Shown: positions 5,337-11,815 of the stretch, piece after piece
Numbering within the stretch: the first letter of the stretch is position 1
How the letters are laid out: each line of letters starts with the position of its first letter
Assembly: GCA_020850695.1 (NCBI GenBank)
Contig: JADZEF010000157.1
Coordinates: 1-64,000, forward strand
DNA: 64,000 nucleotides
Source: Planctomycetaceae bacterium
GTDB lineage: Bacteria > Planctomycetota > Planctomycetia > Planctomycetales > Planctomycetaceae
Reading direction: 5' to 3'
Made by a program: the position numbers and the translations under genes
The notes under the pieces: model-generated
Told to the model about the DNA's origin: nothing
Seen by the model: only the letters and a program-made list of their open reading frames with translations
The model's database searches: none

Positions 5337-6563
5337 ATGCCCCTCACCCTTGCCGACGCCATCCCGACGAATATTCCGGGAACCGAGTCGGAATATCTCT
5401 GGACCCTCAACTTCGGGCCCCAGCACCCCGCCACGCACACCACGTTGCGGCTGATCCTCACGCTCGACGGTGAGAAGGTGCTGCACGCGGTCCCCGACAT
5501 CGGCTACCTGCATAGCGGGTTCGAGAAGCTGGCGGAAGATCTCGACTTCAACCAGTACGTCACCATCGTCGACCGGATGAACTACATTTCGCCGATGGCG
5601 AACGAGATCGCCTGGCATCATACGGTCGAGAAGCTATTGGGCGTCACGCTCACTCCGCGGTGCACCTATCTGCGGACGATGCTCGCCGAGCTGATGCGGA
5701 TCCAGGACCACCTGCTCAACGTCGGCACAACAGGACTCGACCTCGGGGCCTTCACCTGCTTTCTCTACTGCTTCACGCAGCGGGAGAAGATCTACGACAT
5801 CGTCGAGCACGCGTCCGGACAGCGGTTCCACACCAGCTACACTCGCGTCGGCGGCCTGATGTATGACGTCGACGACGCCTGGATCCGCAAGGTCCGCGAC
5901 TTCGTCAAACAGTTCCCGAAGACGCACGCCGAAGTTCACCGCCTTCTCACCCGCAATCGCATTTTTGTCGACCGCACCAAGGGAATCGGCCCTCTCAGCC
6001 GCGAAGACGCCATCGCCCTGAGCGTCACAGGACCCGTGGCCCGCGCGAGTGGCGTCGTCCGCGATCTCCGCAAGGACGAACCTTACCTCGCTTACGCCGA
6101 CCTCGACTTCAAGGTCGTCTGTGCGGACGGCGGCGACTGCTACGCCCGTTATCTCGTCCGCATGGAAGAGATGATGGAGAGCCTGAAGATCATCGAGCAG
6201 TGCCTCGAGAATCTGCCGAGCGGTCCGGTCAATGTCGATCCGGAAGGGCGTGCGGTGATGCCGGCCAAGCCGGCCGTCTATCGCAGCATCGAAGGGCTGA
6301 TCCAGCACTTCGAGATCATCATGCCCAACCGCGGGTTTGTCGCCCCGCTTAACGAAGTCTATGGAGCGGTCGAGTCCCCCAACGGCGAGCTCGGCTACTA
6401 CATCGTCGGCAACGGCACCATCAAGCCCTACCGGGCCCGCACCCGTCCGCCGTCCTACATTCACTTTGCCGTCTTCCCGCACATCATTAAAGACCACACG
6501 CTCAGCGACGTGGTGGCCGTCCTGGGAAGCCTGAACATCATTGCTGCGGAACTGGACCGATGA
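5337..6563 (+). CDS. nuoD: NADH-quinone oxidoreductase subunit D (49 kDa subunit)
   Basis: This is the peripheral-arm subunit that forms the quinone-binding cavity with NuoB and descends from NiFe-hydrogenase large subunits. The 408-aa product is of normal length. It has LNFGPQHPATHTTLRL near the N-terminus, the GYLHSGFEKLAE motif, DRMNYISPM, and the C-terminal RARTRPPSYIHFAVFP followed by LGSLNIIAAELDR, all strongly conserved in the family. ATG 5337 fits the family N-terminus, although no strong Shine-Dalgarno sequence is visible. The stop overlaps the nuoE start (ATGA). Confidence 0.97.
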   Translation: MPLTLADAIPTNIPGTESEYLWTLNFGPQHPATHTTLRLILTLDGEKVLHAVPDIGYLHSGFEKLAEDLDFNQYVTIVDRMNYISPMANEIAWHHTVEKLLGVTLTPRCTYLRTMLAELMRIQDHLLNVGTTGLDLGAFTCFLYCFTQREKIYDIVEHASGQRFHTSYTRVGGLMYDVDDAWIRKVRDFVKQFPKTHAEVHRLLTRNRIFVDRTKGIGPLSREDAIALSVTGPVARASGVVRDLRKDEPYLAYADLDFKVVCADGGDCYARYLVRMEEMMESLKIIEQCLENLPSGPVNVDPEGRAVMPAKPAVYRSIEGLIQHFEIIMPNRGFVAPLNEVYGAVESPNGELGYYIVGNGTIKPYRARTRPPSYIHFAVFPHIIKDHTLSDVVAVLGSLNIIAAELDR

Positions 6564-7033
6564 GCGTGCTGACCGAGGAGATGCGCCAGAAGATCCGCGA
6601 CTTGTGCTCGCGGTATCCGAGCAAGCAGGCGGTGACGCTCCCCGCCCTGCACATGGTGCCCGACGCCATGCGCCAGGTCTCGCGCGAGGCGATCGTCGAG
6701 ATCGCCGAGCTGCTCGACCTGCACCCGGCCGAAGTGCACGACACGATGAGCTTCTACGGCTTTTTCCGCGACGAAAGAGCCCCGCTCGGCAAGCACCGCC
6801 TCTGGGTCTGCCGCAGCCTCTCGTGCATGCTCCGCGGCGGCGAACAGCTTCTGTCCGACCTCTGCGACCGCATGCACGTTGCCCCCGGCGGAACCACAGC
6901 CGACGGCAAGGTGACGCTCGAATTCGCCGAATGCCTCGGCGCCTGTGAAGGCGCCCCGTGCATTCTGGTTGATGAAGATTGTTATATGAATCAGTCCCCG
7001 CAATCGGTGGAGCAGTTGGTGAATAAGTTGTAG
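6560..7033 (+). CDS. nuoE: NADH-quinone oxidoreductase subunit E (24 kDa subunit)
   Basis: This is a peripheral-arm subunit that binds the 2Fe-2S cluster N1a beside the flavin subunit NuoF. The 157-aa product has the thioredoxin-like fold signature and the four ligands C84 and C89 (WVCRSLSCM) plus C125 and C129 (ECLGACEGAP). The helical N-terminal part (about 1-60) matches the family. The start overlaps nuoD by four bases. Directly downstream the operon is interrupted by a zeta-toxin-like gene, although NuoE and NuoF work as a pair. Confidence 0.96.
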   Translation: MSVLTEEMRQKIRDLCSRYPSKQAVTLPALHMVPDAMRQVSREAIVEIAELLDLHPAEVHDTMSFYGFFRDERAPLGKHRLWVCRSLSCMLRGGEQLLSDLCDRMHVAPGGTTADGKVTLEFAECLGACEGAPCILVDEDCYMNQSPQSVEQLVNKL

Positions 7034-7073
7034 TCCGTTGGGAAAGGTTTCGGTCCGCAAGGGAAATCCTTTG

Positions 7074-7682
7074 ATGACTGATCACGATCCCATGGTCGTC
7101 GTCATCGCCGGTCCGAACGGTGCGGGCAAGACGACCATATCTAAGCAAGTCCTGCGAAATGCACTTCATGTCGAGGAGTTCGTCAACGCGGATGCGATAG
7201 CGGCGGGTCTGTCAGAGTATCATCCGGAACGGGTGGCGATTACTGCGGGCCGAATGATGCTCGATCGACTCGATGAGCTCGCGGAATCCAAGGCGAGTTT
7301 TGCTTTCGAAACGACGTTATCGACTCGATCCTTTGCCCCGAAAATAGAGAGTTGGAAGGCGGCAGGTTATTCGTTCCAGTTGGTCTTCGTCTGGGTTCCG
7401 TCTCCGGACGTTTCAGTCAAGCGAATCGAGTATCGAGTGAGCCTTGGCGGTCACAACGTTCCAGAAGAGACGGTTCGACGGAGATATGATCGAAGCCTGA
7501 GAAACCTTTTTGAGCTTTATCTTCCGCTCGCAGATCAATGGGAGATCCTGGACAACTCCCGACCCGGAGAGAAACCGCGAGCGATCGCTGAGGGTGGCCG
7601 AGGAATTCCTGTCAACGTGAGCGAGTCGAACCTCTGGAATATCCTGGAGACGACCTATGGCAACGACAACAACCAAAACTGA
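7074..7682 (+). CDS. Zeta-toxin-like P-loop kinase
   Basis: This 202-aa P-loop protein resembles the zeta toxin / COG4185 family, whose characterised members phosphorylate UDP-N-acetylglucosamine or related substrates. It shows Walker A AGPNGAGKTT at 12-21, FVNADAIAAGL (aspartate at 40) and the FETT motif at 78-81, followed by a basic region (about 135-165) typical of the lid. ATG 7074 has AAGGGA (7059-7064) nine bases upstream; the TTG at 7038 is less likely. It lies between nuoE and nuoF in the same direction and overlaps the next small gene by 26 bp. A hand-counted 60-base sample (7141-7200) is about 52% GC against about 60% in nuoF, which suggests transfer. Family assignment is firm; toxicity and substrate are inference. 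Confidence 0.85.
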   Translation: MTDHDPMVVVIAGPNGAGKTTISKQVLRNALHVEEFVNADAIAAGLSEYHPERVAITAGRMMLDRLDELAESKASFAFETTLSTRSFAPKIESWKAAGYSFQLVFVWVPSPDVSVKRIEYRVSLGGHNVPEETVRRRYDRSLRNLFELYLPLADQWEILDNSRPGEKPRAIAEGGRGIPVNVSESNLWNILETTYGNDNNQN

Positions 7683-7869
7683 TCTTCACGATGCGGCTGA
7701 GCGGGCTCGGCGAATTGAGCAGGAGGCTGGTGCTGCGGTCGAAGTGGCGAGAAAGAAGCATCAGCAAGCTGGGGTTCCGATGGCGGGTTGGCGTGATGGT
7801 CGTGTCGTGGTTGTTGATCCTGTGACCTTGGAAGAGTTGCCGCAGACTGACTCAAAAGAATCTTCTTGA
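7657..7869 (+). CDS. Small partner protein of the zeta-like kinase (putative antitoxin)
   Basis: This 70-aa protein has a charged helical N-terminal half rich in Ala, Glu and Arg (about 8-38) and a short beta-like segment GWRDGRVVVVDPVTLEELP (44-62). I recognise no catalytic motif. It starts inside the end of the kinase gene (26-bp overlap, with GGAG at about 7644-7647), so the two are translationally coupled. Small proteins of this size are often found beside COG4185 kinases and are treated as their antitoxin or regulator. That role here rests on size and position only. It precedes nuoF by 118 bp. Confidence 0.6.
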   Translation: MATTTTKTDLHDAAERARRIEQEAGAAVEVARKKHQQAGVPMAGWRDGRVVVVDPVTLEELPQTDSKESS

Positions 7870-7987
7870 TGCTACCGGAAATCGCCGCCACACAGGATTG
7901 GAACGCTTTGAAATCTTATCTGTTATTGTCTGCTTGAATTCTGCTTTGGTCGTTAGTCAACAGGCCTTTCGTCATACGGACAAGCCC

Positions 7988-9313
7988 GTGCCCAAGTTCG
8001 AACCCGTTCTCCTGGCTCGTGTCGGCAAGCCCGACAGCCAGAAACTCGAAACGTATCGTCGCGACGGCGGCTACGAAGCGCTGAAGAAAGCGCTCGCCAT
8101 GTCGCCCGAGGAAGTCACGAACGTCGTCAAGGACTCGGGGCTCCGCGGCCGCGGCGGGGCCGGCTTCCCCACCGGCCTCAAGTGGACGTTCCTGCCGAAG
8201 AACCACACCGGGCCAATCTATCTCGCCATCAACGCGGACGAGAGCGAACCGGGAACGTTCAACAACCGCATTCTGATGGAGGACGACCCGCACCAGATCC
8301 TCGAAGGGATCGCCATCAGCTGCCACGCGATCAAGTCGGAGCGGGCTTACCTCTATCTGCGGTTCGAATACGGCAAGAGCTACCGCAATCTGCAGGCGGC
8401 CATCGACGAGTGCTATGCGGCCGGGATCCTCGGCAACAACTCGATGGGCTCGGGAAAGAAGCTCGATATCTTTCTGCACCGCGGGGCCGGAGCCTACATC
8501 TGCGGGGAAGAGACGGGGCTCATCGAGAGCCTTGAAGGGAAGCGGGCCTGGCCGCGGATCAAGCCGCCGTTCCCCGCCATCGAAGGGCTCTTCCGCAAGC
8601 CGACCATCGTCAACAACATCGAGACGATGGCCTGCGTCACGCACATCCTCAATCGCGGCGTCGAGTGGTTCAAGTCGATCGGCGTCCCGCCGGATCCGAA
8701 GAACCCCCGCGATGCGGGGAGCTATGGACCGAAGCTGTATTGCCTGAGCGGGCACGTCAACAAGCCGGGCTGCTATGAACTGCCGCTGGGCGTCACCGCC
8801 CGCGAACTGATCTTCGAGCACGGCGGCGGCATCCCGCACGGCCGCAAGGTGAAGGCGGTCGTCCCGGGCGGCATCAGCATGGGCTTCCTGAGCGCCGACG
8901 AACTCGACATTCCGCTCGACTTCAACGGTCCCGGCAAGGTCGGCTGCCTCGGCCTCGGCACGGCGGCGGTCGTCGTCGTGGACGACTCGATCAGCATCGT
9001 TGACGTCCTCTACAACTGCTGCCGTTTCTTCTCGCATGAGTCATGCGGTCAATGCACGCCGTGCCGCGAAGGAACCGCCTGGATGACGAAGATTCTCGAG
9101 CGGATGCGGTCCGGCCACGGCACCACCCGCGACCTCGACCTGCTGGCGGAAGTTTCCGGCAGCATCGGCATCATCCCAGGCACGACAATCTGCGGGTTGT
9201 CGGACGGTGCCGCCTGGCCGGTCAAGAACGCGATCAAGAAGTTCCGTCCCGAGTTTGAAGAATATATCGCCAGTGGAAAGAAGACCGCCCGCGTTCCGGT
9301 CGGAGCGCATTGA
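7988..9313 (+). CDS. nuoF: NADH-quinone oxidoreductase subunit F (51 kDa, NADH/FMN-binding)
   Basis: This subunit oxidises NADH, holds FMN and binds 4Fe-4S cluster N3. The 441-aa product has the glycine-rich GRGGAGFPTGLKW at 54-66 (NADH and FMN site), NADESEPGTFNNR, YICGEETGLIESLEG, and the cluster motif ESCGQCTPCREG at about 351-362, with the fourth cysteine in TTICGLSD. The open frame runs back to a TTG at 7898, but the family N-terminus (PKFEPVLLARV) fits the GTG at 7988; its ribosome site is weak, so the start is uncertain. It is flanked on both sides by toxin-antitoxin-like cassettes. Confidence 0.95.
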   Translation: MPKFEPVLLARVGKPDSQKLETYRRDGGYEALKKALAMSPEEVTNVVKDSGLRGRGGAGFPTGLKWTFLPKNHTGPIYLAINADESEPGTFNNRILMEDDPHQILEGIAISCHAIKSERAYLYLRFEYGKSYRNLQAAIDECYAAGILGNNSMGSGKKLDIFLHRGAGAYICGEETGLIESLEGKRAWPRIKPPFPAIEGLFRKPTIVNNIETMACVTHILNRGVEWFKSIGVPPDPKNPRDAGSYGPKLYCLSGHVNKPGCYELPLGVTARELIFEHGGGIPHGRKVKAVVPGGISMGFLSADELDIPLDFNGPGKVGCLGLGTAAVVVVDDSISIVDVLYNCCRFFSHESCGQCTPCREGTAWMTKILERMRSGHGTTRDLDLLAEVSGSIGIIPGTTICGLSDGAAWPVKNAIKKFRPEFEEYIASGKKTARVPVGAH

Positions 9314-9352: not shown

Positions 9353-9598
9353 ATGACAGCGATCACGATTGACATCCCGGAAGAGGAACTCCAGGCCATC
9401 GAGGAGTTCGCGAAGAAGACGTCTCGTGCGACAGCGGACGTCGTGCGTGAAGCGATTGCCGATTTTCGAAAGAAGCAAATCCCGACGAAGCGTCCGATCA
9501 GCGTCCTGGAGATTCCTTCACATTCCGTCGGCAAGATCCTTCGTCCGCTGTCGCCGGACGATGACATCCTTGGGGAAATGCTTTCGGATGATCCATGA
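9353..9598 (+). CDS. Antitoxin-like ribbon-helix-helix protein
   Basis: This 81-aa protein has the layout of a CopG/RHH-type antitoxin: an N-terminal strand with alternating hydrophobic residues (TAITIDIPEEEL, 2-13), two helices (about 10-44) including a basic ADFRKKQ end, then a poorly ordered acidic tail (SPDDDILGEMLSDDP) that could wrap the partner toxin. Its stop overlaps the ATG of the PIN-domain gene as ATGA, the classic antitoxin-toxin arrangement. It lies 39 bp after nuoF in the same direction. The fold is inferred from pattern, not from a search. Confidence 0.7.
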   Translation: MTAITIDIPEEELQAIEEFAKKTSRATADVVREAIADFRKKQIPTKRPISVLEIPSHSVGKILRPLSPDDDILGEMLSDDP

Positions 9599-10026
9599 CG
9601 TTACCCATCGGATTGGATACAAACTGGCTTGTCCAGTGGGCCATCGTCGAGTCCCCAGCGCATTCGGTCGTGCGGACTCAACTCCAATCGCTCATTGCCC
9701 AGGGAGAAAAACTCGCGTTGACACCGCAGGTTGCTTCAGAGTTCGTGCATATCGTTACTGACACATCCCGCTTTGCTCGACCGCTGTCGATGGAAGAGGC
9801 ATGGACTGATATCGAACATTGGTGGAATGCTCCGGAAGTCGTTCAATGTTTTCCAACGGCAATCAGCGTGCAACTCGGATGGGATTGGATGCGTCAGCAT
9901 CGCCTGGGAAGAAAACGAGTTCTCGATACTCAGCTGGCAGCGACATTCTACAGTCATGGAATCGATCGAATCCTGACGACGAATGCCCGTGATTTCACAG
10001 TCTTCGGATGCTTCACAATTCTATAG
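9595..10026 (+). CDS. PIN-domain protein (VapC-like toxin)
   Basis: This 143-aa protein resembles PIN-domain ribonucleases of the VapC kind, which cleave tRNA or other RNA using Mg2+. The four expected acidic residues are visible: D8 in GLDTNWLVQW, E49 in TPQVASEFVH, D111 in RVLDTQLAATF and D133 in TTNARDFTVFG. Spacing and length are normal for VapC. It is coupled to the upstream antitoxin-like gene by a 4-bp overlap. A hand-counted sample (9841-9900) is about 50% GC, below the surrounding nuo genes. Enzyme class is well supported; action as a toxin is inferred from the pairing. Confidence 0.85.
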   Translation: MTLPIGLDTNWLVQWAIVESPAHSVVRTQLQSLIAQGEKLALTPQVASEFVHIVTDTSRFARPLSMEEAWTDIEHWWNAPEVVQCFPTAISVQLGWDWMRQHRLGRKRVLDTQLAATFYSHGIDRILTTNARDFTVFGCFTIL

Positions 10027-10123: not shown

Positions 10124-11815
10124 ATGCCCACCGTCATCGTCAATGACAAGCCGGTCGAGATCGGCGCGGATGAAAAACTTAACTGCGTGCAGGCGGCGCA
10201 GCGGGCCGGCGTCGAGATTCCGACGTACTGCTGGCACCCCGCCCTCAGCGTCGTCGCCAGCTGCCGCATGTGCCTCATCGAAATGGGGGACAAGAAGCCG
10301 GACGGCACCATCGCGATGCAGCCCAAGCTCTTCCCCGCGTGCCAGACGCCGGTGAAGGACGGGACGGTCATTGTCTCGAACAGCGAGAAGGTGAAGCAGG
10401 CCCAGAAGGGAACGCTCGAGTACCTGCTCCTCAACCACCCGCTCGACTGCCCGGTGTGCGACCAGGCGGGCGAATGCTTCCTGCAGGATTACAGCTATCG
10501 CTATGGCCGCGGCTACACCCGCCTGCAGGAACCGAAGACGCTCAAGCCCGATAAGGACTACATCGGCGACCAGATCACACTCTTCACCGACCGCTGCGTG
10601 ATGTGCACGCGGTGCGTGCGGTTCACGCGGGAGATCAGCGGGACGGCCGAACTGCAGGTCATCAACCGCGGGAGCCACGAAGAGATCGACATCTTCCCGG
10701 GCGAGCCGTGCAACAACAAGCTGGCGGGGAATGTCGTCGACCTCTGTCCGGTCGGCGCCCTCTGTAGCAAGGACTTCCTCTATAAGCAGCGCGTCTGGTG
10801 GCTGCAGACGAAGTCGTCGACCTGCCCCGATTGCAGCACCGGCTGCAGCATCCGCGTCGACCAGACCGGAGACGTCGTGAAGCGGCTGCGGCCGCGGCAC
10901 AATCCGAAGGCCCAGGGGCACTTCATGTGCGACGACGGCCGCTTCGGATGGAAGTACATCCACGGTCCCGATCGCCTCACGCAGCCCGAGATGCGTTCCC
11001 CACAAGGGGCCAAATCGCACGACTGGGACGCCATCCAGCCAGCGCTGCGGGCGGCCCTCGAAGGGGCGGTCACGCGGAAGGCGAGTGCGGTGGCGGCGGT
11101 CCTCTCGCCGTGGATGACGGTCGAAGAGGCTTATCTCCTCGCAAAGTGGCTCAAGCGTCTCTCCCCGCAAACGCGGCTGGCCCTCGGCCCCGTCCGCAAG
11201 GAAGGGGGGGACGACTGCTACCCGAAGGACGTCCGCGGCAAGGCGCTGCCGAACCCGAAGTTCACGATCCGCCATGAGAAGTGCCCCAACCGCAAGGGGG
11301 TCGAACTGATCCTCCAGCACTTCCAGGGAAGCGTGATTCCGTTCGACACGCTCCTGTCGGAAGTCGAGTCGAATCAGGTCGACACGCTGTTTCTCACCGG
11401 CGGCGATCCGAAGGGTTGGATCACCGAAAGCCAGGCGGCCGTGCTGGGCAAGCTGAAGATGCTGGCCGTGCTCGACCTGCTGAAGTCGCCCGCCACACCG
11501 AAGGCTCACTACGTTCTTGCCGGCGGCTCGTTCGCCGAGAAGGACGGAACGTTCATCAATCACGCGGGACTGGCGCAAGCGATCGTGAAGGCGATTCGCT
11601 CCCCGGAGAACGCCCGGCCGGACGGACGCATCCTTTGGGAGCTCTCGGGGCGTCGCGGGCTGTTCCACGCGACGAACCTGCGGCGCGAGATTGGTCAGGA
11701 AGTTCCGTCGCTCGCGGCGCTGTCCGTTGGAGATCTGGGAGAGCATGGCGTGCTGCTGACGGAGCGTCCGACCGTGGCGGCACCCGTTCGCGGTGAGAAG
11801 GTAACGGCTTCATAA
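10124..11815 (+). CDS. nuoG: NADH-quinone oxidoreductase subunit G
   Basis: This iron-sulfur subunit carries electrons from NuoF toward NuoI. From ATG 10124 (563 aa) it has a 2Fe-2S domain with C36, C47, C50 and C73, a His-Cys 4Fe-4S site (H105, C109, C112, C118), a 4Fe-4S site (C158, C161, C164, C208), and an N7-type set C234, C237, C241 and C269. The remainder (about 270-563) is a shortened molybdopterin-oxidoreductase-like region; the E. coli protein is around 900 aa. The open frame extends upstream to 10067, but MPTVIVNDKPVEIG is the natural family start. It follows the PIN gene by 97 bp. Confidence 0.95.
   Translation: MPTVIVNDKPVEIGADEKLNCVQAAQRAGVEIPTYCWHPALSVVASCRMCLIEMGDKKPDGTIAMQPKLFPACQTPVKDGTVIVSNSEKVKQAQKGTLEYLLLNHPLDCPVCDQAGECFLQDYSYRYGRGYTRLQEPKTLKPDKDYIGDQITLFTDRCVMCTRCVRFTREISGTAELQVINRGSHEEIDIFPGEPCNNKLAGNVVDLCPVGALCSKDFLYKQRVWWLQTKSSTCPDCSTGCSIRVDQTGDVVKRLRPRHNPKAQGHFMCDDGRFGWKYIHGPDRLTQPEMRSPQGAKSHDWDAIQPALRAALEGAVTRKASAVAAVLSPWMTVEEAYLLAKWLKRLSPQTRLALGPVRKEGGDDCYPKDVRGKALPNPKFTIRHEKCPNRKGVELILQHFQGSVIPFDTLLSEVESNQVDTLFLTGGDPKGWITESQAAVLGKLKMLAVLDLLKSPATPKAHYVLAGGSFAEKDGTFINHAGLAQAIVKAIRSPENARPDGRILWELSGRRGLFHATNLRREIGQEVPSLAALSVGDLGEHGVLLTERPTVAAPVRGEKVTAS

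Follow-up and report, generated by a model that had tools for sequence, protein, structure and literature searches.

The DNA analysed here (hereafter the window) comprises the first 64,000 nucleotides of contig JADZEF010000157.1 of a Planctomycetaceae bacterium (assembly GCA_020850695.1), and its nuo operon carries two genes between nuoE and nuoF that probably form a mobile addiction module of the zeta-toxin superfamily, integrated into the nuoE-nuoF spacer. The first encodes a P-loop kinase and putative toxin of 202 aa counted from its ATG (7074..7682, + strand; a TTG at 7038 is an alternative start that would add 12 aa) and the second a 70-aa partner and putative antitoxin (7657..7869, + strand). 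The two open reading frames (ORFs) overlap by 26 bp and both run in the direction of the operon. An earlier reading of these letters alone (the sequence-only reading) had described just such a kinase and coupled small gene between nuoE and nuoF, and the identities of the flanking NuoE and NuoF were confirmed. Our interpretation rests on the fold and active-site residues of the kinase, its conserved pairing and gene order with the partner, a natural fusion of the two, their deviant composition, their turnover among related operons and the order in which decaying copies lose their genes. Two small, co-directional and overlapping genes with a patchy, mobile distribution and with copies on plasmids and phages are also what characterizes a type II toxin-antitoxin system.

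The motifs from which the sequence-only reading had recognized a zeta-like kinase, AGPNGAGKT, FVNADAI and FETT, are all present, and the protein matches the Pfam Zeta_toxin model (PF06414) at 49.7 bits relative to a cut-off of 22.3. The Walker A sequence GPNGAGKT spans residues 13-20 and is accompanied by D40, E79, R121 and H127; in an alignment of 33 relatives, G13, N15, G16, G18, K19, D40, E79, R117, R121 and H127 are invariant or nearly so, and the P-loop, Asp, Glu and lid Arg/His expected of zeta kinases are all retained in the window protein. An AlphaFold model built from the window and database-locus sequences reached a predicted local distance difference test score (pLDDT) of 88.9, and its top fold matches in the PDB were the AvrRxo1:Arc1 complex, PezT and epsilon/zeta, with template modelling (TM) scores of 0.61-0.70 by query. 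A sequence search of the PDB returned mainly P-loop matches, and the fold search was needed to find these relatives. Judged by its sequence and predicted structure, the kinase is a member of the zeta-toxin superfamily with the zeta fold. Of its three named relatives, two come from metagenome-assembled genomes of Planctomycetota and one is labelled Deltaproteobacteria; the term COG4185, under which the kinase had also been placed, was not found in the open-licence literature searched.

In epsilon/zeta and PezAT, which have the kinase superfamily and fold in common with the window pair, the antitoxin gene lies upstream. The window pair differs from both in that its partner gene lies downstream, no epsilon or PezA homologue is present, and the GTXR motif by which classical zeta toxins bind UDP-N-acetylglucosamine (UNAG) is absent, the corresponding stretch reading E79-T-T-L-S-T-R. 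Because this motif is missing, UNAG is probably not the substrate. The same short architecture, without the long N-terminus or the GTXR motif, is seen in the 197-aa zeta-family kinase Rv0366c (PezT-Mtb), a bacteriostatic toxin whose listed conserved residues match those of the window kinase, the P-loop, Asp, Glu, Arg and His positions being common to both (PMC6362051). The Rv0366c-Rv0367c pair is distinguished by an upstream antitoxin predicted to be a DNA-binding ribbon-helix-helix (RHH) protein, whereas the window partner is encoded downstream and matches no RHH model. The gene order of the window is instead that of AvrRxo1-Arc1 (ORF1-ORF2), in which the toxin gene comes first and a small antitoxin gene follows directly (PMC4938570), and which is also the nearest solved fold to the window kinase. 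However, AvrRxo1 has roughly twice the length of the window kinase and acts in plant pathogens as a secreted effector, and the window partner has no sequence match to the Arc1 (AvrRxo1-ORF2) chain.

The 70-aa partner matches no entry of Pfam, NCBIfam, PADLOC or PHROGs and carries the residue pattern A...A..H...G.P...W.DG.VV. Of 71 kinases examined, plasmid and prophage copies included, 55 have a match to a hidden Markov model (HMM) of the partner immediately downstream and one has a match upstream, a count that is partly circular in that 25 of the tallied loci went into the model; 17 of the 20 loci outside this training set (L140-L159, fetched later) match it as well. The pair is carried by plasmids of Synechocystis, Nostoc and Geminocystis, where the partner is found by the HMM at E values of 1e-15 to 9e-11 and is annotated merely as 'hypothetical protein', and a weak partner match occurs in Parabacteroides. 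The sequence-only reading had remarked that a kinase-first order is less common for toxin-antitoxin pairs; the order itself is real, but it is no oddity of this copy, being conserved in the module. The association is closest in a prophage-like contig in which kinase and partner form a single ORF as judged by the HMM (L245:2938-3777), and in another (L244:2965-3792) the C-terminus of the ORF appears homologous to the partner by eye while falling below the HMM threshold. In a structural model of the kinase-partner fusion the kinase part is confident and the last 70 residues, corresponding to the partner, have a pLDDT of about 28-59; given this low confidence, we make no claim as to how the partner docks on the kinase. 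As far as sequence comparison can define it, the partner is a coherent and so far undescribed family that spans at least two phyla and probably a third.

The composition of the pair deviates from that of the host operon and looks foreign. The kinase gene has a GC content of 0.54 and a GC content at third codon positions (GC3) of 0.60, and the partner gene a GC3 of 0.47, against 0.79-0.88 in every nuo gene measured, which bears out the lower GC that had been claimed for the kinase relative to nuoF. To follow the pair through the family, we compared the nuo operons of the 74 of 170 family genomes that have a NuoF of this type (the order-level genome set consists of the same 170). The expectation that nuoE and nuoF are normally adjacent holds, as the two lie about 0-250 bp apart in most other operons compared; in the window, a 40-bp gap is followed by the two genes and then by a spacer of 118 bp (7870..7987, + strand), delimited by the ORF ends and the alignment of relatives. 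Far from being conserved in most operons, the intact pair occupies the nuoE-nuoF position in 6 of 69 comparable ones, from six genera (G000, which is the window's own genome, G008, G089, G090, G135 and G094), and it is absent from sister species. The proposal that the pair has been spliced into nuo is thus supported, and the pair is no permanent component of the operon.

Related operons differ in what they carry and in the state of what they carry. The nuoC-nuoD, nuoE-nuoF and nuoF-nuoG spacers hold inserts in G008 but are short in its close sister G009. In G135 the P-loop of the kinase is altered (GAGKP), and this copy may be inactive. Three additional relics of the pair at nuoE-nuoF all belong to one genus, g44, where they form a decay series with the intact pair of G094: in G092 a 430-bp deletion runs through the kinase and leaves the partner intact, in G091 both genes are broken, and in G093 the partner stands alone. 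Loss of the kinase before the partner fits the expectation for a toxin and its antitoxin, and it has a parallel in AvrRxo1-Arc1, where an intact arc1 is retained beside a broken avrRxo1 (PMC4938570).

Two histories could account for this distribution. When the pair and its relics are mapped onto a NuoD-E-F tree, their presence costs six changes; on the kinase tree, linkage to nuo likewise requires six changes, no fewer than in shuffles, and a single clade of nuo-linked kinases appears in 0% of bootstrap trees. Close relatives of the kinase are found elsewhere in many genera, also on plasmids and prophage-like contigs, and among the class-wide matches listed, compared by eye, none outside the family places the kinase beside nuoF. 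The kinase phylogeny points to many insertions rather than one, though not decisively. The alternative, a single ancient insertion at nuoE-nuoF followed by vertical inheritance and many losses, concerns history only and is compatible with toxin-antitoxin function. The decay series within g44 shows that losses occur, and a single clade of the six nuo-linked kinases is not rejected (approximately unbiased test, p-AU 0.133). Set against these points, the six changes and the bootstrap trees, the lack of any recognizable remnant of the pair in most empty nuoE-nuoF spacers, and the like turnover of unrelated cassettes in other spacers make this history rather unlikely, although it keeps appreciable weight.

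The unrejected single clade is one of several results that weigh against a mobile addiction module. Neither the sequence nor the profile of the partner finds an epsilon, PezA or Arc1 chain in the PDB, and the profile search of that database gave nothing meaningful; comparison with sister operons revealed no target duplication or transposase at the insert; and a metabolic role for the kinase is compatible with the data. If the two genes were non-functional passengers or relics, devoid of toxin-antitoxin function, their low GC and foreign composition and the decayed copies in relatives would be readily accommodated; yet the window copy retains all invariant residues and an unbroken frame, its overlapping partner is intact, and both proteins are conserved across phyla, and we regard such a status as improbable. 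Most doubtful of all is an accessory function for the kinase in complex I or in nicotinamide adenine dinucleotide (NAD) metabolism, for instance as an NAD-phosphorylating regulator like AvrRxo1, a role suggested by the placement of the pair between two genes of the NADH-oxidizing module in six genera and by the phosphorylation of NAD by AvrRxo1, the nearest fold match (PMC5491322), but opposed by the rarity of the intact pair and its absence from sisters, the relatives in other genomic settings, the unrelated toxin-antitoxin types that occupy the same gaps, and the failure of nuo-linked kinases to group together.

For the addiction module that we favor, a mechanism can be outlined. A kinase of about 200 aa, of nucleotide or sugar-nucleotide type, would act as the toxin and the overlapping gene would encode its 70-aa antitoxin, the module having integrated into the nuoE-nuoF spacer in the direction of transcription. 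No promoter-like or terminator-like site above chance was found around the pair, and no promoter-like site in 7870..7987; lacking an evident promoter, the pair is presumably transcribed together with nuo. The overlap of the ORFs could couple translation of the antitoxin to that of the toxin. Were transcription to stop or the module to be lost, the antitoxin would be expected to decay first, and the freed kinase might then phosphorylate a small metabolite and halt growth. Antitoxin lability and a freed kinase would together make the cassette hard to lose unless the kinase breaks first.

The neighboring genes are all on the + strand. Upstream lies nuoE (6560..7033; Pfam 2Fe-2S_thioredx at 136 bits; nuoE_fam). 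The mechanically called nuoF ORF starts at TTG 7898 and matches nuoF_fam at 556 bits in this longer form; the alignment of relatives begins only at its residue 31-33, and we therefore place the nuoF start at GTG 7988 (7988..9313). The sequence-only reading overlooked a second two-gene cassette of low GC3 between nuoF and nuoG (9353-10026, + strand), whose genes overlap by 4 bp. The first encodes an 81-aa RHH/CopG-like putative antitoxin (9353..9598; GC3 0.65) that matches RHH_1 at 17.8 bits, below the cut-off of 20.5. The second encodes a 143-aa PIN-domain, VapC-like putative ribonuclease toxin (9595..10026; GC3 0.54) that matches PF01850 at 24.8 bits (cut-off 23.6) and Mtu_PIN_fam at 66.3 bits, below 73.6, and keeps the four acidic residues D8, E49, D111 and D133. 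The arrangement resembles VapBC in that a PIN gene follows an RHH-like gene and overlaps it by 4 bp, but departs from it in that the RHH and VapC-subfamily matches both fall short of their cut-offs. It is followed by nuoG (10124..11815; TIGR01973 NuoG), whose start was picked by homology.

Inserts of this kind recur in the nuo operons of the family. Spacers longer than 400 bp occur between nuoE and nuoF in 11 of 69 operons, between nuoF and nuoG in 12 of 67 and between nuoC and nuoD in 7 of 58, and the ORFs inserted in nuo spacers include HicA/HicB, BrnT, ParE with an antitoxin-like gene, MazF/PemK-like and PIN-like genes, Uma2, DUF4160/DUF2442 pairs and S23-type four-helix proteins. Among chosen ORFs of at least 90 aa in long spacers, 42 are co-oriented with the operon and one is not, a ratio biased by an ORF choice that favored the operon strand. 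The tallied inserts lie below their flanking nuo genes in GC3, two ApbE-like genes only slightly. Gaps between nuoK and nuoL were also considered and, from their ORFs, judged by eye not to be cassettes. In the nuoF-nuoG spacer of G008 (L067:8877-9721), a gene encoding 83 aa overlaps one that is dCTP deaminase-like; this unusual cassette may serve in phage defence or come from a phage. In G107 (L104), a 2.2-kb nuoC-nuoD spacer contains an IS200-like transposase, the sole mobile-element gene identified in nuo spacers.

Control operons were drawn from the same genome set. The S10-spc ribosomal operon is almost devoid of inserts, with only three spacers above 240 bp and none above 406 bp, in a tally that stops at secY and omits two columns whose gene was not among the queries. 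In the window's own genome (L160, G000:C137:11000-27000), no rplC stands in its customary slot between rpsJ and rplD; the L3 protein of a relative found no match within this stretch, the rest of the genome not having been searched for L3. In the atp operon, S23-type genes stand in spacers beside atpG in four genomes, one of which is that of the window, and a PIN-like gene occurs together with a DUF433-like gene in one genome, all assigned by eye and not by Pfam. In the atp operon of the window genome (L201, G000:C242:31600-42600), atpG and atpD are separated by the S23-type four-helix gene, and small ORFs occur in a 792-bp spacer farther downstream. Since the atp operon also carries inserts, insertion is not peculiar to nuo, and certain genomes just have many inserts of this sort. 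We propose that the C-D, E-F and F-G spacers of nuo, and to a lesser extent the atp operon, are recurrent landing places for co-oriented cassettes in this family. A stronger version, in which nuo (and atp) spacers are true hotspots where unrelated cassettes swap, the pair was gained several times and the antitoxin family is undescribed, we put forward tentatively, as a conjunction somewhat short of an even chance; the underlying comparison is with S10-spc and atp rather than with a genome-wide average.

A precedent for a toxin-antitoxin module within a metabolic operon exists in Thermus thermophilus HB8, where an MNT-HEPN module sits inside the lysine operon and is absent in another strain (PMC2701414). 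That is a single case of one module type, whereas in nuo spacers several unrelated types recur across genera. Among open-licence papers, searched by title and abstract, no report of toxin-antitoxin modules in nuo or housekeeping operons in this arrangement was found.

These results point to a family of small antitoxins that accompanies short zeta-type kinases and is annotated as 'hypothetical protein' in the records examined, and the natural kinase-partner fusion makes the pairing testable. Sister operons with, without and with decaying cassettes offer a natural system in which to ask whether toxin-antitoxin modules benefit from residing in an essential operon and whether complex I expression is constrained by them. 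If the stronger, hotspot version is correct, addiction modules ride on core energy operons and may tie the cell to their continued transcription.
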